From: Trichobilharzia regenti
Lineage: Eukaryota > Platyhelminthes > Trematoda > Strigeidida > Schistosomatidae
NCBI GenBank assembly: GCA_944472135.2
Contig: CALYDD020000407.1
Span: 124,001 to 188,000, forward strand
DNA: 64,000 bases
Direction of reading: 5' to 3'
The number at the start of each line of letters is the position of its first letter. Positions within the stretch are counted from its first letter, which is position 1. The notes below the pieces were generated by a model. The model was not told where the DNA came from and ran no database searches. It worked only from the letters and a program-made list of their open reading frames with translations. The translations under genes and the position numbers were made by a program. Below are positions 5,306-64,000 of the stretch, one piece after another.

Positions 5306-5339
5306 TTACCGTTTTTCTGTCTAACATATATTTTCACGG

Positions 5340-6534: not shown

Positions 6535-6760
6535 TTCAAGGACCATTGGATCGGGTCCCAGTGGCTGATGAATGGTCTACGAGCTCACTCGCCTTGTAAC
6601 CGGAAGGTCCTGGGTTCTAATCCCGGTGGGTGCGTACTGATGAAGAGTCCCAAACTAGGACGAAACAGCTGTCCAGTACTCCCAGGTTTACCAAGGGTTC
6701 TCTAACTAATGTCAGCTCATGATGAAATCCTGAAACCAATCAAATCCCTACAAACCAACA
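6535..6760 (+). mobile_element. tRNA-derived SINE with hammerhead-like core (copy A)
   Basis: Shows a tRNA-like head: an A-box-like stretch around AATGGTCTACGAGCTC and a good B box, GGGTTCTAATCCC, near 6612-6624. This is followed by a hammerhead-like core and a tail seen again on the minus strand at 14845-14965 (shared GAAACAGCTGTCCAGTACTCCC). A Pol III promoter arrangement is inferred from the A and B boxes. The element ends are approximate because no target duplication was identified. Identical copy at 60071-60296. Confidence 0.65.
6630..6690 (+). ncRNA. Hammerhead ribozyme-like core (copy A)
   Basis: CTGATGA at 6637-6643, a stem-II helix GTCC (6647-6650) with GGAC (6658-6661), then GAAAC from 6662: the order of a hammerhead catalytic core. 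Three extra bases (AGA, 6644-6646) sit between CTGATGA and stem II, which would probably impair folding. Schistosome Sm-alpha-type SINEs are known to carry hammerhead ribozymes, which supports the assignment. Activity is uncertain. Confidence 0.6.
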
Positions 6761-7232
6761 CTTGAAAACTAATCTTTTATTTTGCTTATTTACAGAATGC
6801 TACCAGTGGATGGATCTCATTCGACAAATTTACAGTGACATAGTACTACAGTTTCCAAAATACAAAAGTCTCTCAATTATAAAAACTGATTTCTTTCTGC
6901 AAACTAAATGAATTGTGCCTGTGTAGTACACAGGTGATGTGATAATAAGTAGCAGTCTTTTCGTTCTGAAGTAATGCTAGTCAGTGCTGAATGTGAGCTG
7001 AGAGGGCTGGAACAACGCTGATAAGCGAATCCAGTAGGTTCTGATATACTGCTGGAAATGCCTTGAAAAAGAATAGGGTGTTGAATCAGTGCCAGCCATG
7101 CTGAAAACCAGCACTGAGTTCTAGTCTGTGTCATTAAACAATCCATTTCAGAACAGATTCAGAATTTACTATAGAATGCTAGAATTATTTCAGAATTAGT
7201 GAGATTTAATTCGGAATTATAGTAAGCTTGGG
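6761..7232. other. Unassigned spacer
   Basis: No supported gene. The minus-strand ORF at 6904-7146 has no recognisable motif. AATTC/GAATT-rich short repeats lie at 7140-7215. Confidence 0.4.
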
Positions 7233-7418
7233 TAATTATCGGTTCGGAACGTCTTCTTAACAATAAGAACTTAGGGTTAGGTCCTTGACAGTCTTTATTC
7301 TTCTGTTCGTTTTCTGGAGCGACTTCTGGAACTCTTCTGGGATTACTTACTAGGTCTCCCGCCAGCATCTTTGGGCACGGATTATCACAACGCAATTTGG
7401 ATCGTTTGGTGACGTTGG

Positions 7419-8015
7419 ATGATGCATGGGCCAAAGAAGGGACGTGTCAACGTGGAAGCAGACAGAAAAGCAAGTAATGCTGAGTTGCCGGCTGTTTGTA
7501 ATGATGTGTTTGACGCTCAGCATGATAAGTCTGATGTTCACGGTTCGCCGTTTAGTGATAGTAGGAGTGTGAAGTTTGAGCCTCGTTACATTGATGGGAA
7601 CCCAGCTGACTATCCACAGTTTGTAAGGGAGTTTGAAGTCATGTTGGGTGGTTTTGTATTAAATGACGAAATGAAGTTAATGTATTTGTTGAGGTATTGC
7701 ACTGGTATTGCTGCAAGAGCCTTACAGTCCCCGGACGAAGGACATGCAGAGGGTATCAGGATATCACGTCAGAGGTTTGGAAAGCCATTTATGATAACCC
7801 GTAGTATTTTTGAGACCGTTAAAGGTAATCGGGCGCAGTTAAGTGATAACTCTGAGGAACTCGCAGAGTTCTTGGATAATTTAATGGTATACAGAAATAC
7901 TCTCGTTTATCTCAACACTATGGATAAGTTGAACTCAAGCTCTGTTCCTGAGACTATTTCTAATAGACTACCGGTTCGTTTGCAAAGAAAGAAAGAAAGG
8001 TCAGTGCCCGTCTAG
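7419..8015 (+). pseudogene. BEL/Pao-type gag-like protein, N-terminal part (copy A)
   Basis: 198-aa ORF matching the gag at 35739-36305: shared KFEPRYIDGNPADYPQFVREFE, KLMYLLRYCTG, and EFLDNLMVYRNTL. The pattern is that of the DUF1759-type gag of BEL/Pao elements, which forms the particle. The conserved KLP before KFEP is altered and the segment between ARALQS and EGHAE is shorter than in the relative. The ORF ends after the RLPVRLQRK block; the reading continues after the stop as the LEEEGLEPGLDD stretch in another frame. Non-autonomous and probably non-functional. Confidence 0.7.
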
Positions 8016-8095
8016 AGGAGGAGGGTTTAGAGCCCGGGTTGGATGATATTGTGAGCCTGGTGAAAGACAGTGTTAACTAAACTTTGAGCAAGTTT

Positions 8096-8229
8096 ATTTA
8101 TTTATTTAAACGCATAAAAACTTGGTACAATATGGCACCAAGAAGGATGCGCCACACTTGTGTGAGGGCTGAGATACTGCCCGGGCGCCCAGACCGAAGC
8201 AGGTGGTTTTATTAAGGGACCGCTCCCTG
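8096..8229 (-). mobile_element. 134-bp retro-insertion with 12-bp target duplication (copy A)
   Basis: TTGAGCAAGTTT occurs at 8084-8095 and again at 8230-8241, bracketing 134 bp absent from the related element at 36306-36420, where the gag reading runs straight through. On the minus strand the insert starts ACAGGGAGCGGTCCCTTAAT and ends in a tail of AAAT repeats (seen on the plus strand as ATTTATTTATTTAAA), as expected of a target-primed SINE-like insertion. Its family was not recognised. Confidence 0.75.
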
Positions 8230-9319
8230 TTGAGCAAGTTTGCTAGTATACTGCATCCCACCCCTGGAATAGGGAAATCAGAGCAAAACGCAATCATTTG
8301 TGACGAAACGGTCTCAGAGAAGTGGATATCGAGAAAGCTGTGTGTATGCAAACTTAATGAGTGTGATAGCTTCCGTGGGACGTCCCCAACAGATAGGTTA
8401 CAAGCTGGAAGACAAACACGGTTGTCTTTCGTCCGTTTGCAAGAAGTGGATACAAAGGCGAACTGTGAAGCAGTGAGCAAGTTTAGTGGAAATCCTTTGT
8501 TGAATAGAGTGTCACAGATGATACCGCAGCTCATGCAGAAGAAAAGAGTTACAGTTTCAGAGTCCAGTTCTGACTCCACAGATAGATGCGATGGTAATGT
8601 GGATATTTGTGACAATGATCATGATGGAGCACATTTGTCTTTTGCTGGTCATGATGAGATGAGCGGAATGCCTACTATTAGTACTACGACTGAGTTGAAT
8701 AAAAGTTCTGTACAGCTCGAACGTGAAGTAGAATTAAGAGATGATGTGATTGCAGAAGTTATGGACACTCGTGAAACCGTCAGTGTAAATGATCAGCGTG
8801 TAGCCCACCTATCGACAGATGTTAAGACTGAACTGGGGCTGATCATAAAATATAGCCGTGGGGGTAATTTTATGGTAAGACAACCTTCTAAAGGTCGAAC
8901 AGCAACAGCTTCTGATGCACCGCTGAGTTCATCGACTTGTATCGTTCAGTCGTTGTTGGTGTTGTCATCCACAATGAAAGGGATGTCCGTGAACTCAGGT
9001 GTCTTGCGTTATCGGTCCGTTTGAAAGGACGAAAGTCAATGGTCAGTTTAGTGAGTATAAGCCAAATGTGTATGAGAGAGTGATTGTTAAACTGACTTGC
9101 ACGAATAAAGGCATTTCAAGTTTCAAGTTACTATTTGAATGTTATTATCTTTGGTGTAAATTACTCTGTGCCTACGCTTGGTTGGTCAGATATGTCGTAT
9201 GTTTGTTAGTCGTCTACATTCCACGATACAATTACATGGGTGTGTCACTGTTCAGAGTTGAGGATATCGATGATGGAAGGAGGTCAGCAGATGAACTCTG
9301 CGACGATTTTCCAACCTAG
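8203..9319 (+). pseudogene. Gag C-terminal region and hydrophobic domain, frameshifted (copy A)
   Basis: Two overlapping frames (8203-9024 and 8999-9319) together match 36370-37700 of the complete element: SKFASILHPTPGI, a Ser/Thr/Asp-rich middle and a C-terminal hydrophobic domain (NKGISSFKLLFECYYLWCK, then RYVVCLLVVYI). The frame break near 9000 corresponds to a small deletion relative to 37320-37370. The first bases of the 8203 ORF come from the 134-bp insertion. The C-terminal roughly 60 codons are visibly the best conserved part relative to the other copy. Confidence 0.65.
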
Positions 9320-9896
9320 GGCGTCAACGTGAGAAAGGTTGTAGGCGTACTGCTGTAAGTCCTACAATTCTTCAAGGGTAGCTCGTCGAGGGAGAATCCA
9401 CAACATTTGACGTATTGACTGTACATATATATTTGTGTTAAGTAATTGATTGGGTTCCGAATCATCTAATTGTTGTCTGATTTTATAGTTGTCGCATTGT
9501 GTGAATCATGTAATATTATTGTAAGTACTTATGAAGTCGTTTCTAGTCTTCTAAACTTGTGAACGAATCGAGTAGTGTTAGAGTCAGTGTATGCGATTTG
9601 ATATGCCAGGGAGGGGATTGTGCCAGAGGGATGTGAAGCAATCAATACCCCGTGGACCAGATCAGTGGTGGTACTGTCGACAGAGAGCGAAGGAAAGTTC
9701 TGATCACTGAGGAAGATCTCACAGGCGGGGGAGAGCCTGCCGGTGTAATGTAGTATGCTTATTGTGTGCTGGGCTTTTTTTGTCTTGCTTTTCCATTTTA
9801 GCCTTGTCCAGGTTGGCCCAGGCTCCCGCGTTGGCAGTTGAGTTAAAGGTTATCGGCGCTATGGGAAAAAGGGATGGACCCTATTTTACCGGTGAG
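9320..9896 (+). other. 3' noncoding region of the LTR element (copy A)
   Basis: No ORF supported. It begins with one unit of a motif (GTAGGCGTACTGCTG...CCTAC, able to pair GTAGG with CCTAC) that is present three times in the related element at 37664-38230. It ends in a purine-rich run and CCGGTGAG just before the 3' LTR. Confidence 0.5.
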
Positions 9897-10192
9897 TGTC
9901 AATGGAGGTGAACACTGTATGTTGGTTCATTGGACTTGATCGCCATCGATGGGCAACTCGAAGGCGCGAATGGTTCTATCGTGTACATGTTGGAAGAAGA
10001 TGAATAAAATTGCATTATATTTTGTATAAAACATTTGTTTGTAGACTTGTAATTATCTTTACTTTAATTGCCAAACAATATAACTTTCCAACGAGTTCTG
10101 GTGTTTTGGATTTAAAGTCAAAGAAAGTACATAATAATTATCAGTTCGTAGCGTCTTCGTAACAATAGGAACTTAGGGTTAAGTCCTTGACA
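9897..10192 (+). repeat. 3' LTR of gag-only element (copy A)
   Basis: Starts TGTCAATGG like the LTRs at 35204 and 38800, ends CCTTGACA. Its last 58 bp match the 5' LTR remnant at 7233-7290 (TTCGTAACAATAGGAACTTA versus TTCTTAACAATAAGAACTTA). A TATA-like ATATTTTGTATAAAA lies near 10015-10030. Confidence 0.65.
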
Positions 10193-11417
10193 TATGTATA
10201 ACTCTCCATTTCACGGAATAGCGAAGTGGTTAGTGAAGATTCTGGGACCTTTACACAGAGAAATCGTGCAACATAGAATTAGTGATATCTTCGACTTTAA
10301 AATATCCGAGACTAATGTGAGGTATAAACGCATGTTTTCTATGGATGTATCATCCCTGTTCACTAATGTATCGCTTATGCAAAACAGTAGATTACATTTG
10401 TCAAGAAATCACCGAAAGGCAACTAGACTTAGGAATTCCTTTGTGTAGCCTCAAAGAATTACTTGTCAAATGTACAATGAACGTTCACTTTGTCTTCAAT
10501 AATTCATACTATCGACAAGTAGATGGAATAGCTATGGGTTCACCATTAGGCCCAATATTAGCTGACTTCTTTCTCGCAAAACTTGGAAACGGGAAATTGA
10601 AAGACATCATCAAGGAGTTTGATATGTATTACCGATATGTCGATGTTAGCTGATGGGAAGGCTAACGTATTGCTACGTAGGCGAGAAGATGGGTTACCTG
10701 GGAGAAGCGTGTGTAGAAAAACCACATTCACAGGGCAATACACACACTTCCTTAGTTCCATGCCCATTAAATATAAAAGAAATGTTAATTGTCTCGCGAG
10801 CAGAGCAAGAAATATATGTATGAATGACCTCTTACAAAAGGAACTTGAATATATTCACGATTCCTTGACGCAGATGGGCTATCCGAGTAGTTTCATAAAG
10901 AAGCATATGAAAACATCAGAGAGAAAACCTGAGACTCTGACTGCACTTAAAACACCTCTGTCTATTAACTTATAATTTAGTGGTGACTTATCAAGTGAGA
11001 TTTTATTCCAGAGACTTTCCAGGAGGATACGAAGAACGTTTTACGCAGGATACCTATTTTTGTCATCCTCTAGTCAACGAATGATCGGGACTCAAACGAA
11101 GGATAAGCTAGGTAGTTTTGCCACATGTATGTGCATTTATCAAGTCAACTGCACCTGAGGTGACAGTTATGTTGGGCGTACTACTAGACAACCTAGTCAA
11201 CGTGTCACTATTGAACATCTCCCATCGTGGTTTGACAAAGGATAGACAAAAACAATCCGCAGCTCAATTTTATCACATTTAGTTGATAGTGGTCATGTAG
11301 TGGAGAAAACGAGAGCTTTCAAAGTAATTCATCGTATCCCACCGAATCTTTCTAATAGACTTCGTATTCGTCTACTGTACACAGCTGAGTCAGGCGATAG
11401 GCATTCGAACTATTAAA
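10193..11417 (+). pseudogene. Penelope-like element RT and GIY-YIG endonuclease (copy A)
   Basis: 5'-truncated Penelope-like element. RT part: [36 protein letters not shown] (catalytic SxDV..LFTN region), frameshift, then [19 protein letters not shown] and [12 protein letters not shown], then YYRYVDVS where YVDD would be expected, so the second catalytic Asp is lost and a stop follows. Linker in the 10619-10975 frame: TFTGQYTHFLSSMPIKYKRN. C-terminal GIY-YIG nuclease signature near 11160-11260: DSYVGRTTRQPSQRVTIEH. At least three frame breaks. The 5' end is cut by the LTR element. The copy-B equivalent begins at 63729. Confidence 0.85.
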
Positions 11418-48325: not shown

Positions 48326-48599
48326 CATTACGTCACCCCCGAACACGATTTAGATGCTTAGTTTGCATTGCCGTAACCACCACATTTCATCACTTTTTTC
48401 TGTTATTGGTATATCTCGAACCTCTCTTCACGCTCTACTGATTTACAGTCACCGTATTGTTTAAGAAAGTGGACTCTCATATCACGTCCTCCCACTCATT
48501 CATTTACGGTCTTCTTTCCTGCTTCAATCCCATAGTGATTACGTGGGATCTTTTATAATAGTACCTATTTTCGTTTTTTAAATTTTTTTATTGTTAATT

Positions 48600-49270
48600 T
48601 TTGTTTGTTTGTTTATTTTGGTTTAACCATTCGTCAAGCCACAGGTGAGGGCCTATGAACGGTCAGTGGAACAATTAACAGTTCATCGTTGGTTGTCCTC
48701 CACACTCGAGACTGCGATACCGCATTCTCCAGTCATGTCAACTATGCCAAGCCAACCCTCATCACAATCCATGGCCTGTGCCATGGTTCAAGCTCAACCT
48801 CAAACAACCCTCAAGAAAATCAACCACACTAGTCTGGCTGGGTACCTAAACACTCTTTTGCTGACGTCTTTTCTACCTTCACCTCTGTCAGCTTCCAGGG
48901 TCACCTTCATTACCAAGACATCACACCCCGATAACCCTACCGACTTCCGGCCTGTCTCCATAACTTATGTTGTTACGCGCTGTCTGCACAAGATTACCAT
49001 CAGGTGTTGGTCATTCCAGATCATTCCCAATGGAAAAACTACAACTTGCCTTCCTGCAACGTGATCGCTGCTTCGAAGCGACCAATCTTCTTCCCACCAT
49101 CTTGAGAGAAGCGCACTCCAATTACACAAGTCGCGAATTAGCTATTCTTGACATTTCAAAAGCTTTCGACAGCGCCCTACATCAAACAATTTTAAGGGTG
49201 ACTGTAAGTCTCGGTATGCCCCAAATGCTTAGAGAATATCTTACACACAAAACCTCTCTAATCCTCAATT
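48600..49270 (+). pseudogene. R2-like RT fragment (palindrome B, left arm)
   Basis: Two frames together give VRAYERSVEQLTVHRW, ASRVTFITKTSHPDNPTDF followed by RPVSITYVVTRCLHKI, then LQLAFLQRDRCFEATNLL, LREAHSNYTSRELAILDISK and AFDSALHQTILR. The FRPVSI and LDISKAFDS boxes are RT motifs, and their context resembles the R2 clade. The fragment stops near 49262 where the RTE element begins. Truncated and frameshifted. Confidence 0.7.
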
Positions 49271-49274
49271 ATCT

Positions 49275-51224
49275 TTGTCTTCATCTTCATCTTTATTACC
49301 TTGCCTTCCTCCCACTGATGTAACTCTACTTGATGGCTCCTTACTCCCTCTTCACTCTGTGTCCACTAAAAACGACGGAAGCCAAAAAACCACCGATAGT
49401 CTCCTAAAGCCACGCCACCAATTTCATATAGGAGCATTTAATGTTAGGACACTTTGCCAAATAGGACAACAAGCATCACTAGCTAAGACCCTGGCATCCC
49501 GAGCCATTGATGTATGTTGTGTTTCAGAAACACGCATACAAGACCCAAGTGTGGTTATTCACCTAACCCCACCTGACCAACAGGATGAATCTTCAAAATT
49601 CACCTTGAGGGTGTCAGGAGATGCCACAGCCAGTTCACGAGGATTAGCTGGCGTAGGGATAGCCTTGAGTACTAGGGCAGAAAAGACATTACTTGACTGG
49701 ATCCCAGTAGATAGCCGAATATGTGCTGTCCGTCCAAACGGATCAGTAAGAAGGAGAAAGGACTGCACTACTCGCCGATGCCTTTTCGTAATCTCCGCCT
49801 ACGCCCCAACTGACTGCAGTTCAGATGAAACGAAGGATGAGTTCTACCAAAAGCTGTCTAGTTTGGTGAGAAAGGCTAAACGCTCAGATATAGTCGTTCT
49901 AGCTGGTGACTTTAATGATCAAGTAGGGAAATTGTGTCAATCTGAGAAGGTTATCGGTGGCACCTATGGAGTCCCGTGCCAGCGAACCGACAACGGTGAC
50001 CGTCTCCTACAGTTCTGTTCAGATAATCATTTGTTTCTCGTAAGTACTAACTTTAAACACAAGGAGAGACACTGTTTAACCTGGCGACCCCCATCATCAA
50101 ACCAACGCTGGACACAAATAGACCACATAGCAATAAGCTATCGTTGGCGTGGATCAGTAGGAGATTGTCGCTCCTTCTGGAACACGTGTGTAGACACCGA
50201 TCACGCACTGGTCCGGGCTCGCGTGTGCTTACGACTAAACGGATGTAGGAAACAGCTGGCGGTAAAACCATCACGTCCCCACCTCGATCAGGAAACTAAA
50301 TCCGTATTTGAGGAAGAACTAGCTAAACGCCTATCCGAGTTCGACAGCTGTGCTCACCCTGAAGAAGCCTGGAAGAATATTCAGTCAGCTATAGATACAG
50401 CGGTAAAAGCTGTGAACAAGGTAAACCCAAAGGCGAGTAAAAACCACTGGATTTCAACTGCCTCATCCGAACTGATAGATGCTAGAAGACTTATTCCGGC
50501 GAGCTCCGAATTCAAAGAGGAGCGAAAGCTGCACAAAAGGAAACTTACTAAAAGTCTCCGCAAGGACCGAGAACAGTGGTGGCTGACTAAGGCAAAAGAG
50601 ATGGAAAAAGCATCGGCGATAGGAAACACCAGGCAACTCTTTAGACTCATCAGGGAAACGGGTGGGAGAAGGCAAATCATAAGTGAGACTATTTCTGAGA
50701 AAAATGGCTCCTTAATTAGCTCTCAGGATAGACGCCTTGAGCGCTGGAAAGAACACTTTGAGGGACAATTTAACTTGCCTACAGCCACACTGAACCTCCC
50801 CGACATCCAGCACACATCCGAATGGGATATAGACACTGGTCCGCCGTCTGTAAGTGAGGTCACAAAAGCTATCAGTAATTTGAAACGAGGCAAAGCGACA
50901 GGACCCGACGGAATTATTCCGGAGGTGTTTAAATATGGGGGTGACATACTAGTTTGTAGATTAACTGAGGTCCTAGGCAAAGTCTGGGAATCAGAGACAG
51001 TGCCATCAGACTGGGGTAAGTCACTTATTATACCGATATTCAAGAAGGGAAACAAGTCCTCGTGTGATAATCATAGGGGGATCAGCCTAACGAACATAGT
51101 CTCTAAAATCCTAGGCTCAATAATCATGCATAGACTAAGCAGAACTCGGGAGGAACAGACAAGGGAAAATCAAGCAGGCTTTAGACCAGGTAGAGGGTGC
51201 ATAGATCATATCTTCACTCTTTGA
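49275..51224 (+). CDS. RTE endonuclease and N-terminal RT (palindrome B, left arm)
   Basis: 649-aa ORF of an RTE-clade element. APE-type endonuclease, residues about 50-330: FHIGAFNVRTLCQIG (Asn), CCVSETRIQD (catalytic Glu), VISAYAPTDC, VVLAGDFNDQVG (Asp, Asn), WTQIDHIAISYRW and DTDHALVRARV (final Asp-His). Linker: ASKNHWISTASSELIDAR. RT N-terminal motifs: NLKRGKATGPDGIIPEVFK, WGKSLIIPIFKKGN, NHRGISLTN and QAGFRPGRGCIDHIF. It ends at a TGA (51222-51224) where an Arg codon is expected, so the polymerase is cut before its catalytic motifs. Endonuclease residues look intact. The start Met lies at the junction with the R2-like fragment. Confidence 0.85.
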   Translation: MSSSSSLLPCLPPTDVTLLDGSLLPLHSVSTKNDGSQKTTDSLLKPRHQFHIGAFNVRTLCQIGQQASLAKTLASRAIDVCCVSETRIQDPSVVIHLTPPDQQDESSKFTLRVSGDATASSRGLAGVGIALSTRAEKTLLDWIPVDSRICAVRPNGSVRRRKDCTTRRCLFVISAYAPTDCSSDETKDEFYQKLSSLVRKAKRSDIVVLAGDFNDQVGKLCQSEKVIGGTYGVPCQRTDNGDRLLQFCSDNHLFLVSTNFKHKERHCLTWRPPSSNQRWTQIDHIAISYRWRGSVGDCRSFWNTCVDTDHALVRARVCLRLNGCRKQLAVKPSRPHLDQETKSVFEEELAKRLSEFDSCAHPEEAWKNIQSAIDTAVKAVNKVNPKASKNHWISTASSELIDARRLIPASSEFKEERKLHKRKLTKSLRKDREQWWLTKAKEMEKASAIGNTRQLFRLIRETGGRRQIISETISEKNGSLISSQDRRLERWKEHFEGQFNLPTATLNLPDIQHTSEWDIDTGPPSVSEVTKAISNLKRGKATGPDGIIPEVFKYGGDILVCRLTEVLGKVWESETVPSDWGKSLIIPIFKKGNKSSCDNHRGISLTNIVSKILGSIIMHRLSRTREEQTRENQAGFRPGRGCIDHIFTL

Positions 51225-52206
51225 CAGATTCTAGAACATAGACACTTTTCGGCGTCCAACAATTGTCATATTTCTTGACTTGAAGGCGGCCTTCGACTCC
51301 GTGGATCGAAAGGTACTATGGCAATGTCTGACTGTGAAGGGAGTGCCAAGAAAGTACATTGCACTAATCAAGGCACTATTCAAACTCACGTAGTCGTGTA
51401 AGGGCTTTTGGGGAATTGTCATCTGAATTGGTTACAACCAGTGGTGTCTGACAGGGATGTCCACTTCCCCATTTCTGTTTAACTTCATCATAGATATCCT
51501 GATGGAAGTATCCTTAACTGAAAGTAATGACTTAGGAATCGACTTGTTACCAGGGAATAGTCTTATGGACTTAGAATATGCAGATGACATAGTCCTAATA
51601 GGGGAGGATGCTGACAAAATGCAGAGTCTTCTGAACACCTTGATCAGCAATCTTCGTATGTTTGGCATGCGATTCGCCCCTGCTGTCAAATGTAAGATGC
51701 TGCTACTGGACTGGACCACGTCAACCCCTAACTTAGTGATAGGGAGTGAAGTGATAGAACATGTTGACCACTTCACTTATTTGGGAAGTTGTATTAGCAC
51801 CAACGGACTGATTGGCGATGAAATCTCAGCACGGATGCGAAAAGCTCGAGCTGCTTTCGCTGACTTACACCATCTCTGGCGTAGGCGTGACATCCGGCTA
51901 TCAACCAAGGGATGTGTGTACTACTCAGCTGCAGTTCGCTCCGTCCTTCTCGATGGCTCTGAAACATGGCCAATACGCGTTGAAGACATGAAAAGGTTGA
52001 CTGCTTTCGATCATAGATGTCTGCGATCTCTGTCTCACGTTAGGTGGTTTAATAAGGTAAGTAATGCTGACGTTAGGTGTAGAGTGTTGGGCAGAGAGGA
52101 AAAATCAATCGACGAAGCTATAAAGTTACATAGACTGAGATGGCTAGGTCAAGTGCTGCGCATGCCTAACCATCGCCTCCCCCGACGAGCATTACTAGCT
52201 GATGGG
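51225..52206 (+). pseudogene. RTE RT, C-terminal half (palindrome B, left arm)
   Basis: Continues the preceding ORF after lesions: the TGA at 51222, a frameshift near 51245 leading to FLDLKAAFDSVDR, a TGA in the GV-Q-GCPL motif near 51449, and a 1-nt frameshift near 51467. From 51457 the frame gives SPFLFNFIIDILME, LEYADDIVLIGEDA (YADD intact) and the C-terminal domain to PRRALLAD, where the RTE is truncated. The same lesions are present in the other arm and in copy A. Confidence 0.88.
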
Positions 52207-52359
52207 CAAGTCGACTTAAACAGTGAGGGTCAGCATCCAATGTTCAGAGTGATGAGTGCTGTGGTCAAAAATTTTGAGGAATTATATGCCGCTACACCGG
52301 AAATACAGTCCAGAAACTCTCCAGGTACGAAATACGCACTACATATCAAGAATAATTAA

Positions 52360-53450
52360 CCAAGCACAACAGTTAAGTAAGTACTCAAGAATCATTGATA
52401 ATCTTCCCAACAAGATGGGGTCTGAACTCTGTCTTCAAGAGTCGAATGAAACGAAATACGTTTCCTTCAGTCATTCTAAGGTTAGGTGGTCGTCCTATGG
52501 CCTACGTCTGATTTCATTAGCACAAAACTGCAGTCGAAAAACAGCGCGCTATTATCAACATCATCATACAACATAAAAGAGAAGGATCAAAATTATGAAT
52601 CAGCCAAAATCCACGACAAACCAACAGAAATCATACAAGTTCTAGAACGATGATAAATACGTTATGGAAAAGGGTTTTGGTTGTGAAATTAGTTGAAATG
52701 CTCGGAATAAGCACCATGGAGGATTTTCATATAAACTGTCCTGGTACAATTGATGAAGTTGAGTTTGCGTCACACATGTTTCTTTACTTATCGAGAGAGT
52801 ACCAAATGAAATGATGAGTCATAACACTCGTTTTGAATTTATTATTCATGCATCATGATCATCGCCCTCTATTATTCACTAACACATGAGGACTTTAAAT
52901 GCATCAAATGTTTTGTACTAGAACATAGCCTGTCAAGCCAGATTGTGTGTATGTGAACGTTGTTTCTTAATTTGGTGAATGCCCTCCCCCTTCGCTAACT
53001 GTCTTCACTTCAAGGTTTGTAAGTTTACTAAATGTCTGCCTTTAAGAATTGATGGCCGTATTGTGACGTATTACGCTTATGTACGCATTTTCATAGTTTC
53101 CATAGCCAGATTCAATGGAACCGTATAATCTCAGCATTCCATCTGAAGATTCAGATGAATACGAAGATGATGGTCCTGCTGATTTTCGATGAGGAATTTC
53201 TAAGAATATGCCGGTCCTGCTCAGTGGAAACGCTCATATTACTACTGGAAGAAATCCGGCGTCTTTATCCTTTTCTACCACCTACCCGGTGGACATCAAG
53301 AAGGGAATATACTTGATGAAAAGATGGAAGATCCCGGCCCCTGGACAAGGTAATTTGGAAATGTTCCCTTAAACTAGTTTAATCTAAGAATGTGGCATAT
53401 TTTCCGTGCTTTTAGGCCGCTGTGGGCTTTTCCTAAAGGAGGAAAAGATG
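52360..53450. other. Unrecognised inner-arm sequence of palindrome B (left)
   Basis: Same as 1024-2120: no recognised element, short coding-like stretches only. Confidence 0.5.
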
Positions 53451-53506
53451 CAATTTTCTCCCCGTTAAGAAAAATCTAATTTTCTTAACGAGGAAGAAAA
53501 TTGCAT
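53450..53506. repeat. Centre of palindrome B
   Basis: Arms meet with only a few unpaired bases (around AATCTAA). Left of centre reads TTCTCCCCGTTAAG and right of centre carries the complement of TTCTTCCTCGTTAAG. This is the reverse orientation of the centre of palindrome A, and 1 bp shorter. Confidence 0.85.
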
Positions 53507-54594
53507 CTTTTCCTCCTTTAGGAAAAGCCCACAGCGGCCTAAAAGCACGGAAAATATGCCACATTCTTAGATTAAACTAGTTTAAGGGAACATTTCCAAA
53601 TTACCTTGTCCAGGGGCCGGGATCTTCCATCTTTTCATCAAGTATATTCCCTTCTTGATGTCCACCGGGTAGGTGGTAGAAAAGGATAAAGACGCCGGAT
53701 TTCTTCCAGTAGTAATATGAGCGTTTCCACTGAGCAGGACCGGCATATTCTTAGAAATTCCTCATCGAAAATCAGCAGGACCATCATCTTCGTATTCATC
53801 TGAATCTTCAGATGGAATGCTGAGATTATACGGTTCCATTGAATCTGGCTATGGAAACTATGAAAATGCGTACATAAGCGTAATACGTCACAATACGGCC
53901 ATCAATTCTTAAAGGCAGACATTTAGTAAACTTACAAACCTTGAAGTGAAGACAGTTAGCGAAGGGGGAGGGCATTCACCAAATTAAGAAACAACGTTCA
54001 CATACACACAATCTGGCTTGACAGGCTATGTTCTAGTACAAAACATTTGATGCATTTAAAGTCCTCATGTGTTAGTGAATAATAGAGGGCGATGATCATG
54101 ATGCATGAATAATAAATTCAAAACGAGTGTTATGACTCATCATTTCATTTGGTACTCTCTCGATAAGTAAAGAAACATGTGTGACGCAAACTCAACTTCA
54201 TCAATTGTACCAGGACAGTTTATATGAAAATCCTCCATGGTGCTTATTCCGAGCATTTCAACTAATTTCACAACCAAAACCCTTTTCCATAACGTATTTA
54301 TCATCGTTCTAGAACTTGTATGATTTCTGTTGGTTTGTCGTGGATTTTGGCTGATTCATAATTTTGATCCTTCTCTTTTATGTTGTATGATGATGTTGAT
54401 AATAGCGCGCTGTTTTTCGACTGCAGTTTTGTGCTAATGAAATCAGACGTAGGCCATAGGACGACCACCTAACCTTAGAATGACTGAAGGAAACGTATTT
54501 CGTTTCATTCGACTCTTGAAGACAGAGTTCAGACCCCATCTTGTTGGGAAGATTATCAATGATTCTTGAGTACTTACTTAACTGTTGTGCTTGG
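53507..54594. other. Unrecognised inner-arm sequence of palindrome B (right)
   Basis: Mirror of 52360-53450. Nothing further recognised. Confidence 0.5.
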
Positions 54595-54747
54595 TTAATT
54601 ATTCTTGATATGTAGTGCGTATTTCGTACCTGGAGAGTTTCTGGACTGTATTTCCGGTGTAGCGGCATATAATTCCTCAAAATTTTTGACCACAGCACTC
54701 ATCACTCTGAACATTGGATGCTGACCCTCACTGTTTAAGTCGACTTG

Positions 54748-55729
54748 CCCATCAGCTAGTAATGCTCGTCGGGGGAGGCGATGGTTAGGCATGCGCAGCA
54801 CTTGACCTAGCCATCTCAGTCTATGTAACTTTATAGCTTCGTCGATTGATTTTTCCTCTCTGCCCAACACTCTACACCTAACGTCAGCATTACTTACCTT
54901 ATTAAACCACCTAACGTGAGACAGAGATCGCAGACATCTATGATCGAAAGCAGTCAACCTTTTCATGTCTTCAACGCGTATTGGCCATGTTTCAGAGCCA
55001 TCGAGAAGGACGGAGCGAACTGCAGCTGAGTAGTACACACATCCCTTGGTTGATAGCCGGATGTCACGCCTACGCCAGAGATGGTGTAAGTCAGCGAAAG
55101 CAGCTCGAGCTTTTCGCATCCGTGCTGAGATTTCATCGCCAATCAGTCCGTTGGTGCTAATACAACTTCCCAAATAAGTGAAGTGGTCAACATGTTCTAT
55201 CACTTCACTCCCTATCACTAAGTTAGGGGTTGACGTGGTCCAGTCCAGTAGCAGCATCTTACATTTGACAGCAGGGGCGAATCGCATGCCAAACATACGA
55301 AGATTGCTGATCAAGGTGTTCAGAAGACTCTGCATTTTGTCAGCATCCTCCCCTATTAGGACTATGTCATCTGCATATTCTAAGTCCATAAGACTATTCC
55401 CTGGTAACAAGTCGATTCCTAAGTCATTACTTTCAGTTAAGGATACTTCCATCAGGATATCTATGATGAAGTTAAACAGAAATGGGGAAGTGGACATCCC
55501 TGTCAGACACCACTGGTTGTAACCAATTCAGATGACAATTCCCCAAAAGCCCTTACACGACTACGTGAGTTTGAATAGTGCCTTGATTAGTGCAATGTAC
55601 TTTCTTGGCACTCCCTTCACAGTCAGACATTGCCATAGTACCTTTCGATCCACGGAGTCGAAGGCCGCCTTCAAGTCAAGAAATATGACAATTGTTGGAC
55701 GCCGAAAAGTGTCTATGTTCTAGAATCTG
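54748..55729 (-). pseudogene. RTE RT, C-terminal half (palindrome B, right arm)
   Basis: Mirror copy of 51225-52206, including the same stops and frameshifts and the intact YADD. Confidence 0.88.
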
Positions 55730-57679
55730 TCAAAGAGTGAAGATATGATCTATGCACCCTCTACCTGGTCTAAAGCCTGCTTGATTTTCCCTTGTCTGTT
55801 CCTCCCGAGTTCTGCTTAGTCTATGCATGATTATTGAGCCTAGGATTTTAGAGACTATGTTCGTTAGGCTGATCCCCCTATGATTATCACACGAGGACTT
55901 GTTTCCCTTCTTGAATATCGGTATAATAAGTGACTTACCCCAGTCTGATGGCACTGTCTCTGATTCCCAGACTTTGCCTAGGACCTCAGTTAATCTACAA
56001 ACTAGTATGTCACCCCCATATTTAAACACCTCCGGAATAATTCCGTCGGGTCCTGTCGCTTTGCCTCCTTTCAAATTACTGATAGCTTTTGTGACCTCAC
56101 TTACAGACGGCGGACCAGTGTCTATATCCCATTCGGATGTGTGCTGGATGTCGGGGAGGTTCAGTGTGGCTGTAGGCAAGTTAAATTGTCCCTCAAAGTG
56201 TTCTTTCCAGCGCTCAAGGCGTCTATCCTGAGAGCTAATTAAGGAGCCATTTTTCTCAGAAATAGTCTCACTTATGATTTGCCTTCTCCCACCCGTTTCC
56301 CTGATGAGTCTAAAGAGTTGCCTGGTGTTTCCTATCGCCGATGCTTTTTCCATCTCTTTTGCCTTTGTCAGCCACCACTGTTCTCGGTCCTTGCGGAGAC
56401 TTTTAGTAAGTTTCCTTTTGTGCAGCTTTCGCTCCTCTTTGAATTCGGAGCTCGCCGGAATAAGTCTTCTAGCATCTATCAGTTCGGATGAGGCAGTTGA
56501 AATCCAGTGGTTTTTACTCGCCTTTGGGTTTACCTTGTTCACAGCTTTTACCGCTGTATCTATAGCTGACTGAATATTCTTCCAGGCTTCTTCAGGGTGA
56601 GCACAGCTGTCGAACTCGGATAGGCGTTTAGCTAGTTCTTCCTCAAATACGGATTTAGTTTCCTGATCGAGGTGGGGACGTGATGGTTTTACCGCCAGCT
56701 GTTTCCTACATCCGTTTAGTCGTAAGCACACGCGAGCCCGGACCAGTGCGTGATCGGTGTCTACACACGTGTTCCAGAAGGAGCGACAATCTCCTACTGA
56801 TCCACGCCAACGATAGCTTATTGCTATGTGGTCTATTTGTGTCCAGCGTTGGTTTGATGATGGGGGTCGCCAGGTTAAACAGTGTCTCTCCTTGTGTTTA
56901 AAGTTAGTACTTACGAGAAACAAATGATTATCTGAACAGAACTGTAGGAGACGGTCACCGTTGTCGGTTCGCTGGCACGGGACTCCATAGGTGCCACCGA
57001 TAACCTTCTCAGATTGACACAATTTCCCTACTTGATCATTAAAGTCACCAGCTAGAACGACTATATCTGAGCGTTTAGCCTTTCTCACCAAACTAGACAG
57101 CTTTTGGTAGAACTCATCCTTCGTTTCATCTGAACTGCAGTCAGTTGGGGCGTAGGCGGAGATTACGAAAAGGCATCGGCGAGTAGTGCAGTCCTTTCTC
57201 CTTCTTACTGATCCGTTTGGACGGACAGCACATATTCGGCTATCTACTGGGATCCAGTCAAGTAATGTCTTTTCTGCCCTAGTACTCAAGGCTATCCCTA
57301 CGCCAGCTAATCCTCGTGAACTGGCTGTGGCATCTCCTGACACCCTCAAGGTGAATTTTGAAGATTCATCCTGTTGGTCAGGTGGGGTTAGGTGAATAAC
57401 CACACTTGGGTCTTGTATGCGTGTTTCTGAAACACAACATACATCAATGGCTCGGGATGCCAGGGTCTTAGCTAGTGATGCTTGTTGTCCTATTTGGCAA
57501 AGTGTCCTAACATTAAATGCTCCTATATGAAATTGGTGGCGTGGCTTTAGGAGACTATCGGTGGTTTTTTGGCTTCCGTCGTTTTTAGTGGACACAGAGT
57601 GAAGAGGGAGTAAGGAGCCATCAAGTAGAGTTACATCAGTGGGAGGAAGGCAAGGTAATAAAGATGAAGATGAAGACAA
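55730..57679 (-). CDS. RTE endonuclease and N-terminal RT (palindrome B, right arm)
   Basis: 649-aa ORF, mirror of 49275-51224, with the same endonuclease and RT motifs and the same TGA. Differences noticed: NLKGGKATGPDG where the other arm has NLKRGKATGPDG, and a Leu/Phe-type difference in a shadow frame, meaning one more base change near 56367. The Gly form is the one expected in active RTE elements (K-GKATGPDG with Gly/Arg variable), so neither arm is clearly the ancestral one. Confidence 0.85.
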   Translation of the reverse strand: MSSSSSLLPCLPPTDVTLLDGSLLPLHSVSTKNDGSQKTTDSLLKPRHQFHIGAFNVRTLCQIGQQASLAKTLASRAIDVCCVSETRIQDPSVVIHLTPPDQQDESSKFTLRVSGDATASSRGLAGVGIALSTRAEKTLLDWIPVDSRICAVRPNGSVRRRKDCTTRRCLFVISAYAPTDCSSDETKDEFYQKLSSLVRKAKRSDIVVLAGDFNDQVGKLCQSEKVIGGTYGVPCQRTDNGDRLLQFCSDNHLFLVSTNFKHKERHCLTWRPPSSNQRWTQIDHIAISYRWRGSVGDCRSFWNTCVDTDHALVRARVCLRLNGCRKQLAVKPSRPHLDQETKSVFEEELAKRLSEFDSCAHPEEAWKNIQSAIDTAVKAVNKVNPKASKNHWISTASSELIDARRLIPASSEFKEERKLHKRKLTKSLRKDREQWWLTKAKEMEKASAIGNTRQLFRLIRETGGRRQIISETISEKNGSLISSQDRRLERWKEHFEGQFNLPTATLNLPDIQHTSEWDIDTGPPSVSEVTKAISNLKGGKATGPDGIIPEVFKYGGDILVCRLTEVLGKVWESETVPSDWGKSLIIPIFKKGNKSSCDNHRGISLTNIVSKILGSIIMHRLSRTREEQTRENQAGFRPGRGCIDHIFTL

Positions 57680-57689
57680 AGATAATTGA

Positions 57690-58370
57690 GGATTAGAGAG
57701 GTTTTGTGTGTAAGATATTCTCTAAGCATTTGGGGCATACCGAGACTTACAGTCACCCTTAAAATTGTTTGATGTAGGGCGCTGTCGAAAGCTTTTGAAA
57801 TGTCAAGAATAGCTAATTCGCGACTTGTGTAATTGGAGTGCGCTTCTCTCAAGATGGTGGGAAGAAGATTGGTCGCTTCGAAGCAGCGATCACGTTGCAG
57901 GAAGGCAAGTTGTAGTTTTTCCATTGGGAATGATCTGGAATGACCAACACCTGATGGTAATCTTGTGCAGACAGCGCGTAACAACATAAGTTATGGAGAC
58001 AGGCCGGAAGTCGGTAGGGTTATCGGGGTGTGATGTCTTGGTAATGAAGGTGACCCTGGAAGCTGACAGAGGTGAAGGTAGAAAAGACGTCAGCAAAAGA
58101 GTGTTTAGGTACCCAGCCAGACTAGTGTGGTTGATTTTCTTGAGGGTTGTTTGAGGTTGAGCTCGAACCATGGCACAGGCCATGGATTATGATGAGGGTT
58201 GGCTTGGCATAGTTGACATGACTGGAGAATGCGGTTTCGCAGTCTCGAGTGTGGAGGACAACCAACGATGAACTGTTAATTGTTCCACTGACCGTTCATA
58301 GGCCCTCACCTGTGGCTTGACGAATGGTTAAACCAAAATAAACAAAACAAACAAAAATTAACAATAAAAA
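57690..58370 (-). pseudogene. R2-like RT fragment (palindrome B, right arm)
   Basis: Mirror copy of 48600-49270. The start of the 48645 frame is altered (GGTTTCGC versus GGTATCGC), leaving a shorter open stretch. It extends to the A-rich tract near 58340-58380. Confidence 0.7.
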
Positions 58371-58592
58371 AATTTAAAAAACGAAAATAGGTACTATTAT
58401 AAAAGATCCCACGTAATCACTATGGGATTGAAGCAGGAAAGAAGACCGTAAATGAATGAGTGGGAGGACGTGATATGAGAGTCCACTTTCTTAAGCAATA
58501 CGAGGGAGATGCAGCGTCAAAATGATTATAAATGAGAAGAGGGTGAGGATAGGAGTTGAGAGATACTAAGAACATCGGAAATAGGTGATGAA

Positions 58593-58841
58593 ATGTCGAA
58601 TTTTCAAGAATTCGAGGAAGGCTGCGAAATGAATACAATGGGTTTACTCAGTGGGGGTGGGGGTTTGGACGTCGATTGTGAGAAGTCAAGCTGTCTGAAT
58701 TATTTCATTATCACCCTTCTAGATACGTATGAGAATTGTAAAAAGGGTGGAGAGCTTTTGGGAAACTATGATCAAGGCACCAAGAAGGTAGAGACGAACG
58801 GTGACACGTTTCCAATGCCTAGTAGGAGACTGAAAAGGTAG
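58593..58841 (+). CDS. Hypothetical ORF, 82 aa (copy B)
   Basis: Identical to 5057-5305. No recognised domain. It lies just right of the palindrome edge. Confidence 0.25.
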   Translation: MSNFQEFEEGCEMNTMGLLSGGGGLDVDCEKSSCLNYFIITLLDTYENCKKGGELLGNYDQGTKKVETNGDTFPMPSRRLKR

Positions 58842-58875
58842 TTACCGTTTTTCTGTCTAACATATATTTTCACGG

Positions 58876-59770
58876 ATGGCAAAAAAATGAGATGAATTTC
58901 CTATACAACTCCATGGGTAATGATATAGCCGCCAGTGCAGTTGGTTGCATCAAAGCACAATATCCAGATGATAATTTATTTGATGACTTTGTAGCCCCAA
59001 TTCCGAGGTATTAACCCAACTGAAAGCCATTCATTTTCAGTACTTCGAATGCTTCCAACTTCCATTCTTCATCTGTTGGCAAAAAGACAGTTGTATCTGA
59101 CCGTTAGGAACAATTGTTACAATTTTTATTCGTGCTTTAAATTGCTGTCTAACGACGATGCCACCTGATCCATAATTAAGAAAATACTCGGTAATACTTC
59201 AAAGTAATTATTTATTTAAAGATACAAATATGGAAATCATTAACCTGTGCACGAACATGCTGAACATTATGACTCCTGACAGAAAATCTCGACAGCAAAC
59301 ATACCTTCCAGCAAACGATGACTTCACACTGGACTTTCCGATCGAGAATGAAGACCACCTAGAGATGCTGAAGGCATCTTGAGGAGACTAAAAGTACAAA
59401 CTACCATGTGTGAGTTGACATATTTAATGCTTATTTCTTGTAGACTGCTAAAATGGTTAGCTGCCTTCACAGAGGGATCCAAAGTTATCACTTTAGGTCA
59501 TGATACACCATGTTCTAAAATCTGAAGTGGGTTTAAAGTTTACATTCCAGGGGACTTTGTCTTTGACAAGGCATTGTGCCTTATGCCTTTCATTAAATAA
59601 TGAGATGTAAGGTTCATTAATGAAGTACTTAGTTCTGTAGATGTAATTATGGCGCAGTTCTCCGGCCAACTAATGACTTCGAGAGAGGTTGGTGGCGACA
59701 CAATGGATAAGGCCACAAAATCGTACTTTCATAATTTGAAAGATCGTGTCAGTAAGGCGTCAGTAAGCTG
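58876..59770 (+). pseudogene. Exon-like remnants of an unidentified gene (copy B)
   Basis: Copy of 5340-6234, with one seen change (GACTTTGTCTTTGAC versus GACTTTGACTTTGAC near 59556, an Asp to Val change in the conserved-looking peptide). Same stops and same tiny intron-like gap. Confidence 0.45.
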
Positions 59771-60070
59771 AAAAAAGGAATTCAGGTAATATATTGCGAA
59801 ACGCCTGCTTACTCTTTTATAAGTCAACGTTTATTCAGCATGTAGTAATCATAAGATTGTTTTTATTTCTTCGCAAATGAAAAAGATACCAGGGGAAAGA
59901 TATAACCAGTGGCAGTTATGTTGTAAATAAACTTTTCTAAATGTAAGTGCTGAAAAAATATGATGAGCACAATTTTTCAGTAGGGTGCAGCTGGTCGGGT
60001 GTGAGGACAAATACTCGCCGAAGACATTGGCTAGCGGTCGCGCTATGTCGTGAATTGGTAGAAGTTAGAA

Positions 60071-60296
60071 TTCAAGGACCATTGGATCGGGTCCCAGTGG
60101 CTGATGAATGGTCTACGAGCTCACTCGCCTTGTAACCGGAAGGTCCTGGGTTCTAATCCCGGTGGGTGCGTACTGATGAAGAGTCCCAAACTAGGACGAA
60201 ACAGCTGTCCAGTACTCCCAGGTTTACCAAGGGTTCTCTAACTAATGTCAGCTCATGATGAAATCCTGAAACCAATCAAATCCCTACAAACCAACA
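60071..60296 (+). mobile_element. tRNA-derived SINE with hammerhead-like core (copy B)
   Basis: Copy of 6535-6760, with B box GGGTTCTAATCCC. Confidence 0.65.
60166..60226 (+). ncRNA. Hammerhead ribozyme-like core (copy B)
   Basis: CTGATGA at 60173-60179, GTCC/GGAC stem II, GAAAC. Same three-base insertion between core and stem II as in copy A. Confidence 0.6.
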
Positions 60297-60954
60297 CTTG
60301 AAAACTAATCTTTTATTTTGCTTATTTACAGAATGCTACCAGTGGATGGATCTCATTCGACAAATTTACAGTGACATAGTACTACAGTTTCCAAAATACA
60401 AAAGTCTCTCAATTATAAAAACTGATTTCTTTCTGCAAACTAAATGAATTGTGCCTGTGTAGTACACAGGTGATGTGATAATAAGTAGCAGTCTTTTCGT
60501 TCTGAAGTAATGCTAGTCAGTGCTGAATGTGAGCTGAGAGGGCTGGAACAACGCTGATAAGCGAATCCAGTAGGTTCTGATATACTGCTGGAAATGCCTT
60601 GAAAAAGAATAGGGTGTTGAATCAGTGCCAGCCATGCTGAAAACCAGCACTGAGTTCTAGTCTGTGTCATTAAACAATCCATTTCAGAACAGATTCAGAA
60701 TTTACTATAGAATGCTAGAATTATTTCAGAATTAGTGAGATTTAATTCGGAATTATAGTAAGCTTGGGTAATTATCGGTTCGGAACGTCTTCTTAACAAT
60801 AAGAACTTAGGGTTAGGTCCTTGACAGTCTTTATTCTTCTGTTCGTTTTCTGGAGCGACTTCTGGAACTCTTCTGGGATTACTTACTAGGTCTCCCGCCA
60901 GCATCTTTGGGCACGGATTATCACAACGCAATTTGGATCGTTTGGTGACGTTGG

Positions 60955-61551
60955 ATGATGCATGGGCCAAAGAAGGGACGTGTCAACGTGGAAGCAGACA
61001 GAAAAGCAAGTAATGCTGAGTTGCCGGCTGTTTGTAATGATGTGTTTGACGCTCAGCATGATAAGTCTGATGTTCACGGTTCGCCGTTTAGTGATAGTAG
61101 GAGTGTGAAGTTTGAGCCTCGTTACATTGATGGGAACCCAGCTGACTATCCACAGTTTGTAAGGGAGTTTGAAGTCATGTTGGGTGGTTTTGTATTAAAT
61201 GACGAAATGAAGTTAATGTATTTGTTGAGGTATTGCACTGGTATTGCTGCAAGAGCCTTACAGTCCCCGGACGAAGGACATGCAGAGGGTATCAGGATAT
61301 CACGTCAGAGGTTTGGAAAGCCATTTATGATAACCCGTAGTATTTTTGAGACCGTTAAAGGTAATCGGGCGCAGTTAAGTGATAACTCTGAGGAACTCGC
61401 AGAGTTCTTGGATAATTTAATGGTATACAGAAATACTCTCGTTTATCTCAACACTATGGATAAGTTGAACTCAAGCTCTGTTCCTGAGACTATTTCTAAT
61501 AGACTACCGGTTCGTTTGCAAAGAAAGAAAGAAAGGTCAGTGCCCGTCTAG
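60955..61551 (+). pseudogene. BEL/Pao-type gag-like protein, N-terminal part (copy B)
   Basis: Same 198-aa product as 7419-8015. Confidence 0.7.
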
Positions 61552-61631
61552 AGGAGGAGGGTTTAGAGCCCGGGTTGGATGATATTGTGAGCCTGGTGAA
61601 AGACAGTGTTAACTAAACTTTGAGCAAGTTT

Positions 61632-61765
61632 ATTTATTTATTTAAACGCATAAAAACTTGGTACAATATGGCACCAAGAAGGATGCGCCACACTTGTGTG
61701 AGGGCTGAGATACTGCCCGGGCGCCCAGACCGAAGCAGGTGGTTTTATTAAGGGACCGCTCCCTG
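61632..61765 (-). mobile_element. 134-bp retro-insertion with 12-bp target duplication (copy B)
   Basis: Same insert and same TTGAGCAAGTTT duplication as at 8084-8241; the insertion predates the segmental duplication. Confidence 0.75.
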
Positions 61766-62855
61766 TTGAGCAAGTTTGCTAGTATACTGCATCCCACCCC
61801 TGGAATAGGGAAATCAGAGCAAAACGCAATCATTTGTGACGAAACGGTCTCAGAGAAGTGGATATCGAGAAAGCTGTGTGTATGCAAACTTAATGAGTGT
61901 GATAGCTTCCGTGGGACGTCCCCAACAGATAGGTTACAAGCTGGAAGACAAACACGGTTGTCTTTCGTCCGTTTGCAAGAAGTGGATACAAAGGCGAACT
62001 GTGAAGCAGTGAGCAAGTTTAGTGGAAATCCTTTGTTGAATAGAGTGTCACAGATGATACCGCAGCTCATGCAGAAGAAAAGAGTTACAGTTTCAGAGTC
62101 CAGTTCTGACTCCACAGATAGATGCGATGGTAATGTGGATATTTGTGACAATGATCATGATGGAGCACATTTGTCTTTTGCTGGTCATGATGAGATGAGC
62201 GGAATGCCTACTATTAGTACTACGACTGAGTTGAATAAAAGTTCTGTACAGCTCGAACGTGAAGTAGAATTAAGAGATGATGTGATTGCAGAAGTTATGG
62301 ACACTCGTGAAACCGTCAGTGTAAATGATCAGCGTGTAGCCCACCTATCGACAGATGTTAAGACTGAACTGGGGCTGATCATAAAATATAGCCGTGGGGG
62401 TAATTTTATGGTAAGACAACCTTCTAAAGGTCGAACAGCAACAGCTTCTGATGCACCGCTGAGTTCATCGACTTGTATCGTTCAGTCGTTGTTGGTGTTG
62501 TCATCCACAATGAAAGGGATGTCCGTGAACTCAGGTGTCTTGCGTTATCGGTCCGTTTGAAAGGACGAAAGTCAATGGTCAGTTTAGTGAGTATAAGCCA
62601 AATGTGTATGAGAGAGTGATTGTTAAACTGACTTGCACGAATAAAGGCATTTCAAGTTTCAAGTTACTATTTGAATGTTATTATCTTTGGTGTAAATTAC
62701 TCTGTGCCTACGCTTGGTTGGTCAGATATGTCGTATGTTTGTTAGTCGTCTACATTCCACGATACAATTACATGGGTGTGTCACTGTTCAGAGTTGAGGA
62801 TATCGATGATGGAAGGAGGTCAGCAGATGAACTCTGCGACGATTTTCCAACCTAG
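61739..62855 (+). pseudogene. Gag C-terminal region and hydrophobic domain (copy B)
   Basis: Same as 8203-9319: two overlapping frames (61739-62560 and 62535-62855) and the same frame break. Confidence 0.65.
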
Positions 62856-63432
62856 GGCGTCAACGTGAGAAAGGTTGTAGGCGTACTGCTGTAAGTCCTA
62901 CAATTCTTCAAGGGTAGCTCGTCGAGGGAGAATCCACAACATTTGACGTATTGACTGTACATATATATTTGTGTTAAGTAATTGATTGGGTTCCGAATCA
63001 TCTAATTGTTGTCTGATTTTATAGTTGTCGCATTGTGTGAATCATGTAATATTATTGTAAGTACTTATGAAGTCGTTTCTAGTCTTCTAAACTTGTGAAC
63101 GAATCGAGTAGTGTTAGAGTCAGTGTATGCGATTTGATATGCCAGGGAGGGGATTGTGCCAGAGGGATGTGAAGCAATCAATACCCCGTGGACCAGATCA
63201 GTGGTGGTACTGTCGACAGAGAGCGAAGGAAAGTTCTGATCACTGAGGAAGATCTCACAGGCGGGGGAGAGCCTGCCGGTGTAATGTAGTATGCTTATTG
63301 TGTGCTGGGCTTTTTTTGTCTTGCTTTTCCATTTTAGCCTTGTCCAGGTTGGCCCAGGCTCCCGCGTTGGCAGTTGAGTTAAAGGTTATCGGCGCTATGG
63401 GAAAAAGGGATGGACCCTATTTTACCGGTGAG

Positions 63433-63728
63433 TGTCAATGGAGGTGAACACTGTATGTTGGTTCATTGGACTTGATCGCCATCGATGGGCAACTCGAAGG
63501 CGCGAATGGTTCTATCGTGTACATGTTGGAAGAAGATGAATAAAATTGCATTATATTTTGTATAAAACATTTGTTTGTAGACTTGTAATTATCTTTACTT
63601 TAATTGCCAAACAATATAACTTTCCAACGAGTTCTGGTGTTTTGGATTTAAAGTCAAAGAAAGTACATAATAATTATCAGTTCGTAGCGTCTTCGTAACA
63701 ATAGGAACTTAGGGTTAAGTCCTTGACA
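63433..63728 (+). repeat. 3' LTR of gag-only element (copy B)
   Basis: Copy of 9897-10192. Confidence 0.65.
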
Positions 63729-64000
63729 TATGTATAACTCTCCATTTCACGGAATAGCGAAGTGGTTAGTGAAGATTCTGGGACCTTTACACAGAGAAAT
63801 CGTGCAACATAGAATTAGTGATATCTTCGACTTTAAAATATCCGAGACTAATGTGAGGTATAAACGCATGTTTTCTATGGATGTATCATCCCTGTTCACT
63901 AATGTATCGCTTATGCAAAACAGTAGATTACATTTGTCAAGAAATCACCGAAAGGCAACTAGACTTAGGAATTCCTTTGTGTAGTCTCAAAGAATTACTT
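63729..64000 (+). pseudogene. Penelope-like element RT, cut by window end (copy B)
   Basis: NSPFHGIAKWLVKILGPLH and [17 protein letters not shown] as at 10193; the window ends within the RT. Confidence 0.8.

Follow-up and report, generated by a model that had tools for sequence, protein, structure and literature searches.

A palindrome with almost no spacer

We analysed a stretch of 64,000 nucleotides from the bird schistosome Trichobilharzia regenti (assembly GCA_944472135.2, contig CALYDD020000407.1, positions 124,001 to 188,000 of the forward strand), hereafter 'the window', in whose own coordinates all positions are given. The public T. regenti assembly with this accession is named tdTriRege1.1 (PMC13155389). 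Between 48453 and 58502 it contains a palindrome of about 10 kb with almost no spacer, with mirrored, broken retroelement sequence in its arms. The window also opens inside another copy of this palindrome, so that the two are referred to as copy 1 (cut by the window start) and copy 2 (complete). The features of copy 2 are the following:

48453..53459 (+): left arm of palindrome copy 2 (self-BLAST, repeat finding, arm alignment)
53460..53494 (no strand): 35-nt asymmetric centre of copy 2, an imperfect hairpin and the proposed fold-back start site (folding and alignment)
53495..58502 (-): right arm of palindrome copy 2 (self-BLAST, repeat finding, arm alignment)
49233..52203 (+): broken RTE-type retroelement of the left arm, with endonuclease and reverse transcriptase domains in broken frames; mirrored at about 54751-57721
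57634..58186 (-): R2-like reverse-transcriptase fragments of the right arm (PDB and Pfam matches); mirrored at about 48.8-49.3 kb

When 48453-58502 was compared with its own reverse complement by self-BLAST, identity was 99.78% over 10,054 columns. The alignment of 48453-53459 with the complement of 53495-58502, from which the central 35 nt are excluded, gave 5,001 matches, 6 mismatches and one gap column (a 1-bp indel). The repeat finder reported arms of 4,902 nt with 3 nt between them, together with a further outer pair (48453-48624 and 58331-58502). An arm match of 5 kb at 99.9% was taken as needing no chance model. A preliminary description of this DNA had announced a near-perfect palindrome of about 10 kb, and it is indeed present in the sequence, as two mirrored arms of about 5.0 kb that differ by six substitutions and the 1-bp indel. 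The start that had been given for it was exact; the end, given as 58501, was one base off and lies at 58502.

Content of the arms

From the edge to the centre, each arm is composed of the R2-like fragments, the RTE-type element, and then about 1.2 kb without an assigned family. The label RTE is that of the preliminary description; the domain matches themselves show an endonuclease and a reverse transcriptase. For the arm frame of this element, the top-scoring protein match was from Schistosoma rodhaini (68% over 93%), and the most similar proteins were two from T. regenti (85% and 83%), both of which covered 31% of the query. The likeness of the element to another fragment of the window ends at 52203. 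As for the R2-like fragments, they matched R2 retrotransposon chains of the PDB with an E value of 1.7e-4 and a reverse-transcriptase-like chain with an E value of 0.027, and the Pfam RVT_1 match, at 18.6 bits, was under its cut-off. The mirrored RTE-type and R2-like content that had been described earlier is thereby recovered, weakly in the case of the R2 part.

In the inner 1.2 kb (52204-53459), three of the 15 open reading frames (ORFs) listed were scanned, and none gave a Pfam match above its cut-off; one more of these ORFs starts in the RTE-type element and was scanned with it, so that the scan covered four of the 15. The seven arm ORFs that were scanned contained reverse-transcriptase or endonuclease domains, or nothing above cut-off, and no host gene was recognised among them with Pfam, a scan that falls short of an exhaustive gene search. 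The window yielded no tRNA with ARAGORN, and none of the three Rfam matches of the window lies within 48453-58502. We propose no host function for the palindrome, the recognised content of its arms being broken retroelement sequence. The entire patchwork of elements is mirrored, and each arm is therefore a copy of the other and not a set of independent insertions.

A second copy, within a direct duplication

The other copy of the palindrome and the duplicated sequence that adjoins it are made up as follows:

1..2123 (+): left arm of copy 1, truncated where the window begins (self-BLAST, alignments)
2124..2159 (no strand): 36-nt centre of copy 1, which runs opposite to that of copy 2; its stem has 8 bp and its loop 9 nt (score of 55 when aligned in reverse, 13 when aligned directly)
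2160..4966 (-): right arm of copy 1, from which 2,201 bp are deleted at 4471/4472 (self-BLAST, alignments)
4472..10464 (+): first direct duplicate, formed by the right arm's outer 495 bp together with the right flank (7 substitutions and no gap over 5,993 bp)
58008..64000 (+): second direct duplicate, 53,536 bp further on and running off the window (same alignment)

Positions 1-4282 are self-complementary at 99.6%, around a centre at about 2141. The arms of copy 1 (1-2123 and 2160-4282) differ at two positions, and at both of them its right arm stands alone against the other three. This right arm is also without the equivalent of 55807-58007 (2,201 bp), and the junction, placed by eye, shows no microhomology. 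Since the sequence from 4472 onward matches that from 58008 onward at a constant offset, up to the end of the window, the palindrome and its right flank are directly duplicated: in this assembly they are present twice, in direct orientation and 53.5 kb apart, and both copies leave the window. Neither the second palindrome nor the duplicated state of the flank figured in the preliminary description.

Two matches to the type I hammerhead ribozyme of Rfam, at 6634-6679 (+) and 60170-60215 (+), belong to the duplicated flank and score 50.8 bits each, for a cut-off of 34. A third match, at 14915-14960 (-), scores 34.4 bits and is found in a 127-bp stretch that is 79% like this flank.

The central hairpin

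The centre of copy 2 is not a perfect mirror. It consists of an 11-bp stem with a 6-nt loop, followed by an interrupted outer stem, and this mismatched hairpin contrasts with the sequence immediately outside, where pairing is almost perfect. As a background, 9,764 35-mers were taken, one every 5 nt, from the part of the window outside both palindromes. The DNA folding energy of the copy 2 centre, -9.7 kcal/mol, was reached by four of them.

When the centre of copy 1 is aligned with the complement of the centre of copy 2, two substitutions and one indel remain. In the assembly, the centre is therefore inverted between the copies relative to the right flank that they share. We infer that the inversion also took place in the animal itself, placement by the assembler being the alternative.

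At both substitutions between the centres (2124-2159 and 53460-53494), it is copy 2 that has the more regular stem. Such a difference would resemble template switching in a quasi-palindrome, in whichever direction the change ran. The motif TTAA is found on either side of the central loop and could be a piggyBac target site.

The outer edges

Outside the arms, two further segments were found to resemble each other in inverted orientation:

48382..48451 (+): outer flank on the left, homologous to 58523-58597 in inverted and diverged form (57 of 76 columns; 0 of 1,000 shuffles)
58523..58597 (-): outer flank on the right, homologous to 48382-48451 in inverted and diverged form (57 of 76 columns; 0 of 1,000 shuffles)

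The near-perfect match ends at 48453 and 58502, and a diverged inverted homology lies beyond it (57 of 69 columns alike when gaps are left aside), separated from the right arm by 20 nt that have no partner (58503-58522). Its score of 75 was reached in none of the 1,000 dinucleotide shuffles (mean 31, standard deviation 5.3, maximum 61). Among 630 segments of the window, the only one to reach it was the right flank itself; the next score, 61, belonged to the same flank in copy 1, and the following one was 43. Since the diverged match continues past both edges, the left edge lies at a sequence homologous to the right flank. Apart from these 70 bp or so, the left and right flanks are different. 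The edge homology is compatible with a closure by recombination between diverged inverted relatives, and also with the end of a conversion tract.

A fold-back transposable element, or a transposon with terminal inverted repeats, was also considered. It was rejected, as no target-site duplication was seen by eye beside 48453 and 58502.

Signs of exchange between the arms

The differences between the arms of copy 2 are unevenly placed, five of the seven being found in the outer tenth of the arm (binomial test, P = 1.8e-4, framed after the sites were seen). A comparison of copy 1 with copy 2 was made along the direct duplicate: the outer 495 bp of the right arm contain five differences, and the contiguous 5,498 bp of flank contain two (Fisher test, P = 7e-5, likewise framed afterwards). 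This contiguous test supersedes an earlier, hand-counted one, also post hoc, in which 6 of 2,826 positions were set against 2 of 5,498 (P = 0.02). The outer clustering and the excess of arm over flank differences point to sequence exchange. In the preliminary description the arms were held to be either very recent or kept alike by gene conversion; on the strength of these two distributions, that claim is supported in part.

Individual sites could be followed across the copies. At three of the five outer-arm sites, the right arm of copy 1 has the base of the left arm of copy 2, and at the other two it differs from both arms; at site 58109, both arms of copy 2 carry an identical base in the arm alignment. 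The right arm of copy 1 agrees with that of copy 2 at 48460 and at the 48607 indel, which are the outermost two differences. A single inversion, with a breakpoint between 48607 and 48718, could account for the centre and the three sites together. Three changes private to the right arm of copy 2 could equally give those three sites, however, and it is the centre alone that demands an inversion. At 51777 and its partners, a base is common to both arms of copy 1 and different from both arms of copy 2, which is what conversion would give, although this is a single site.

A proposed natural fold-back inverted duplication

The explanation that we favour, with a probability of about 0.55, is a natural fold-back inverted duplication in a retroelement-rich region, which would have started from a short imperfect hairpin and been duplicated later, with exchange between the arms. 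The first event would be a break near 53.48 kb, after which a single strand may have folded on the imperfect hairpin of the 35-nt centre and primed synthesis along one arm. Recombination with a diverged inverted relative would then have closed the new strand near 48453, and the homologous segments outside both edges may be the remnant of that relative. In yeast, according to one study, short-loop hairpins start fold-back inversions, and closure occurs mostly by homology-mediated rearrangements (PMC7467729). The palindrome would next have been duplicated together with its right flank, giving the two direct copies present in the assembly. Later exchange, between the arms or with relatives, probably included an inversion between the copies, of the centre at least, as the differences among the four arms and the two centres suggest. 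Finally, the 2,201 bp that are missing in the assembly from one arm of copy 1 would have been lost.

Several points weigh against this explanation. The centre of copy 1 is a weaker hairpin, its folding energy of -5.7 kcal/mol being matched by 138 of the 9,764 35-mers. The outer gradient of identity is also expected from conversion of an older inverted repeat, and the clustering and arm-versus-flank tests have the post hoc character already mentioned. Moreover, the yeast study reports that short-loop events are suppressed by MRE11 and SAE2, the median loop being 35.5 nt where both work (PMC7467729), and the human inverted duplications described in another report have spacers of 766-70,466 bp, far longer than here (PMC3907307).

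Alternative explanations

A palindrome might be real in part and yet be misrepresented by the assembly, if two haplotypes or repeat copies had been joined end to end, with an interior orientation chosen by the assembler. We consider this improbable, at a level that still has to be reckoned with. Only 2 of 5,498 positions distinguish the flanks of copy 1 and copy 2, and joined haplotypes, with the interior in either orientation, would give much the same picture; arms longer than the reads would, in addition, leave the orientation of the centre open. On the other hand, the window is without N, and the copies differ by the 2,201-bp deletion, by the orientation of the centre and by three changes within it, although haplotypes may differ likewise. 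Less evidence stands against a false duplication of this kind than against an artefact arising in the reads.

Somewhat less probable again is an older, diverged inverted repeat, whose arms would have been homogenised by gene conversion with no fold-back event. The diverged homology beyond both edges, and the five of seven differences in the outer tenth, resemble a fading conversion tract, and the inner site common to both copy 1 arms, unlike both copy 2 arms, would also suit it. However, near-identity reaches to about 17 nt from the centre on each side, the entire nested patchwork of elements is mirrored, and conversion by itself does not place two old copies back to back.

An artefact at the level of the reads (a missed adapter, a nanopore fold-back or whole-genome amplification) appears very unlikely, because the same centre is found in two diverged copies, the flank into which one arm leads is unlike that of the other, and apart from one indel the differences are substitutions. 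One survey put fold-back reads at about 0.55-0.6% of the nanopore genomic reads and found them virtually absent from its PacBio HiFi data; it also reports that artefactual fold-back reads can recur at the same places (PMC12870357), which weakens the argument of the shared centre but not the other two. Elsewhere, palindromic reads are reported to be common after whole-genome amplification and to have reached 45.8% in one amplified set, and inverted duplications due to amplification to have entered an assembly (PMC6218980). The 'fold-back assembly artefact' envisaged in the preliminary description thus finds little room at the read level, and what is left of it is the false duplication or wrong orientation weighed above.

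An ampliconic palindrome of the W sex chromosome, with arms kept alike for the protection of genes, would agree with reports that schistosomes are female-heterogametic (PMC8662593) and that willow and some birds have palindromes on the W (PMC7023750), but we give it very little credence, as the arm ORFs scanned, the tRNA search of the window and the Rfam search of the arms revealed no gene to protect. This lack counts against a gene-protecting role of the kind described for palindromes of Y and W chromosomes (PMC7023750), and not against a location on the W.

Other repeats in the window

A second direct duplication (24848-28752 and 31107-35008), 99.4% identical over 3,905 columns, contains pieces of integrase and reverse-transcriptase elements and is more diverged than the palindrome flank. 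A third direct pair (11696-14107 and 21698-24123) is about 96% alike over 2.4 kb. Four related copies of about 190 bp (30826-31029, 42093-42294, 46631-46823 and 48129-48320) are 81-93% alike and occur in both orientations; the start of the copy at 48.1 kb looks tRNA-like, although ARAGORN finds no tRNA there, and this is perhaps a short interspersed element.

Between 35204 and 39158, a frame with a DUF1759 match is enclosed by a pair of direct repeats, each of about 360 bp, which are 93% alike and lie 3.6 kb apart; the whole is perhaps a long terminal repeat element. A relative of it is found within the duplicated flank, at 7427-9912. An element resembling a long interspersed nuclear element (LINE), at 16117-20542, has long open frames. 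Among these, the reverse-transcriptase frame (19172-20539) shares 99% identity, along 95% of its length, with a T. regenti protein that belongs to a cluster of 26 members, so this LINE-like family has perhaps been active recently; the best matches of the same frame in T. szidati are at 53-54%.

Significance and comparison with known systems

Long palindromes whose arms are hardly separated are expected to be unstable. A natural example for which candidate start and closing sites can be named would be a fossil of an inverted duplication. One might go further and suppose, quite tentatively, that a palindrome in which no host gene can be recognised persists in the germline within a direct repeat whose period is about 53.5 kb, that it flips by crossing-over between its arms and is homogenised by exchange with no gene to protect, and that it possibly lies on the W. 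On that reading, the likeness of the arms would follow from palindromy itself and would not indicate selection. The two copies, with their opposite centres, would allow a direct test of the rate of arm exchange in an animal germline, and of whether arm identity requires genes under selection. For those who assemble schistosome genomes, which are rich in repeats, the locus is also a test case. Among the papers listed from the open-licence PMC literature, titles and the beginning of abstracts revealed no comparable trematode structure, which is weak evidence of absence.

The closest parallel is provided by the hairpin fold-back inversions of Saccharomyces cerevisiae, which likewise have inverted arms around a short-loop hairpin and are mostly closed by homology; the short-loop class is defined in that study by loops under 15 nt, with stems down to 4 bp (PMC7467729). 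The yeast events are selected laboratory rearrangements, in which short loops are found in repair mutants and chromosome ends are captured (PMC7467729), whereas the product described here is interstitial, natural and duplicated. The large inverted duplications of the human genome, for which a fold-back model has been described, share with our locus the inverted copies and an unduplicated spacer flanked by short inverted homology. They differ from it by their spacers (766-70,466 bp, compared to 6 nt here), by far larger arms, and by their position at chromosome ends (PMC3907307). The palindromes reported on the W of Salix purpurea have very similar arms, signs of exchange between them, and a deletion in one arm, as in T. 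regenti; in contrast, they bear genes and have spacers in the kilobase range (for W.P1, 2.6 kb in the text of the report and 3,586 bp in its table) (PMC7023750).

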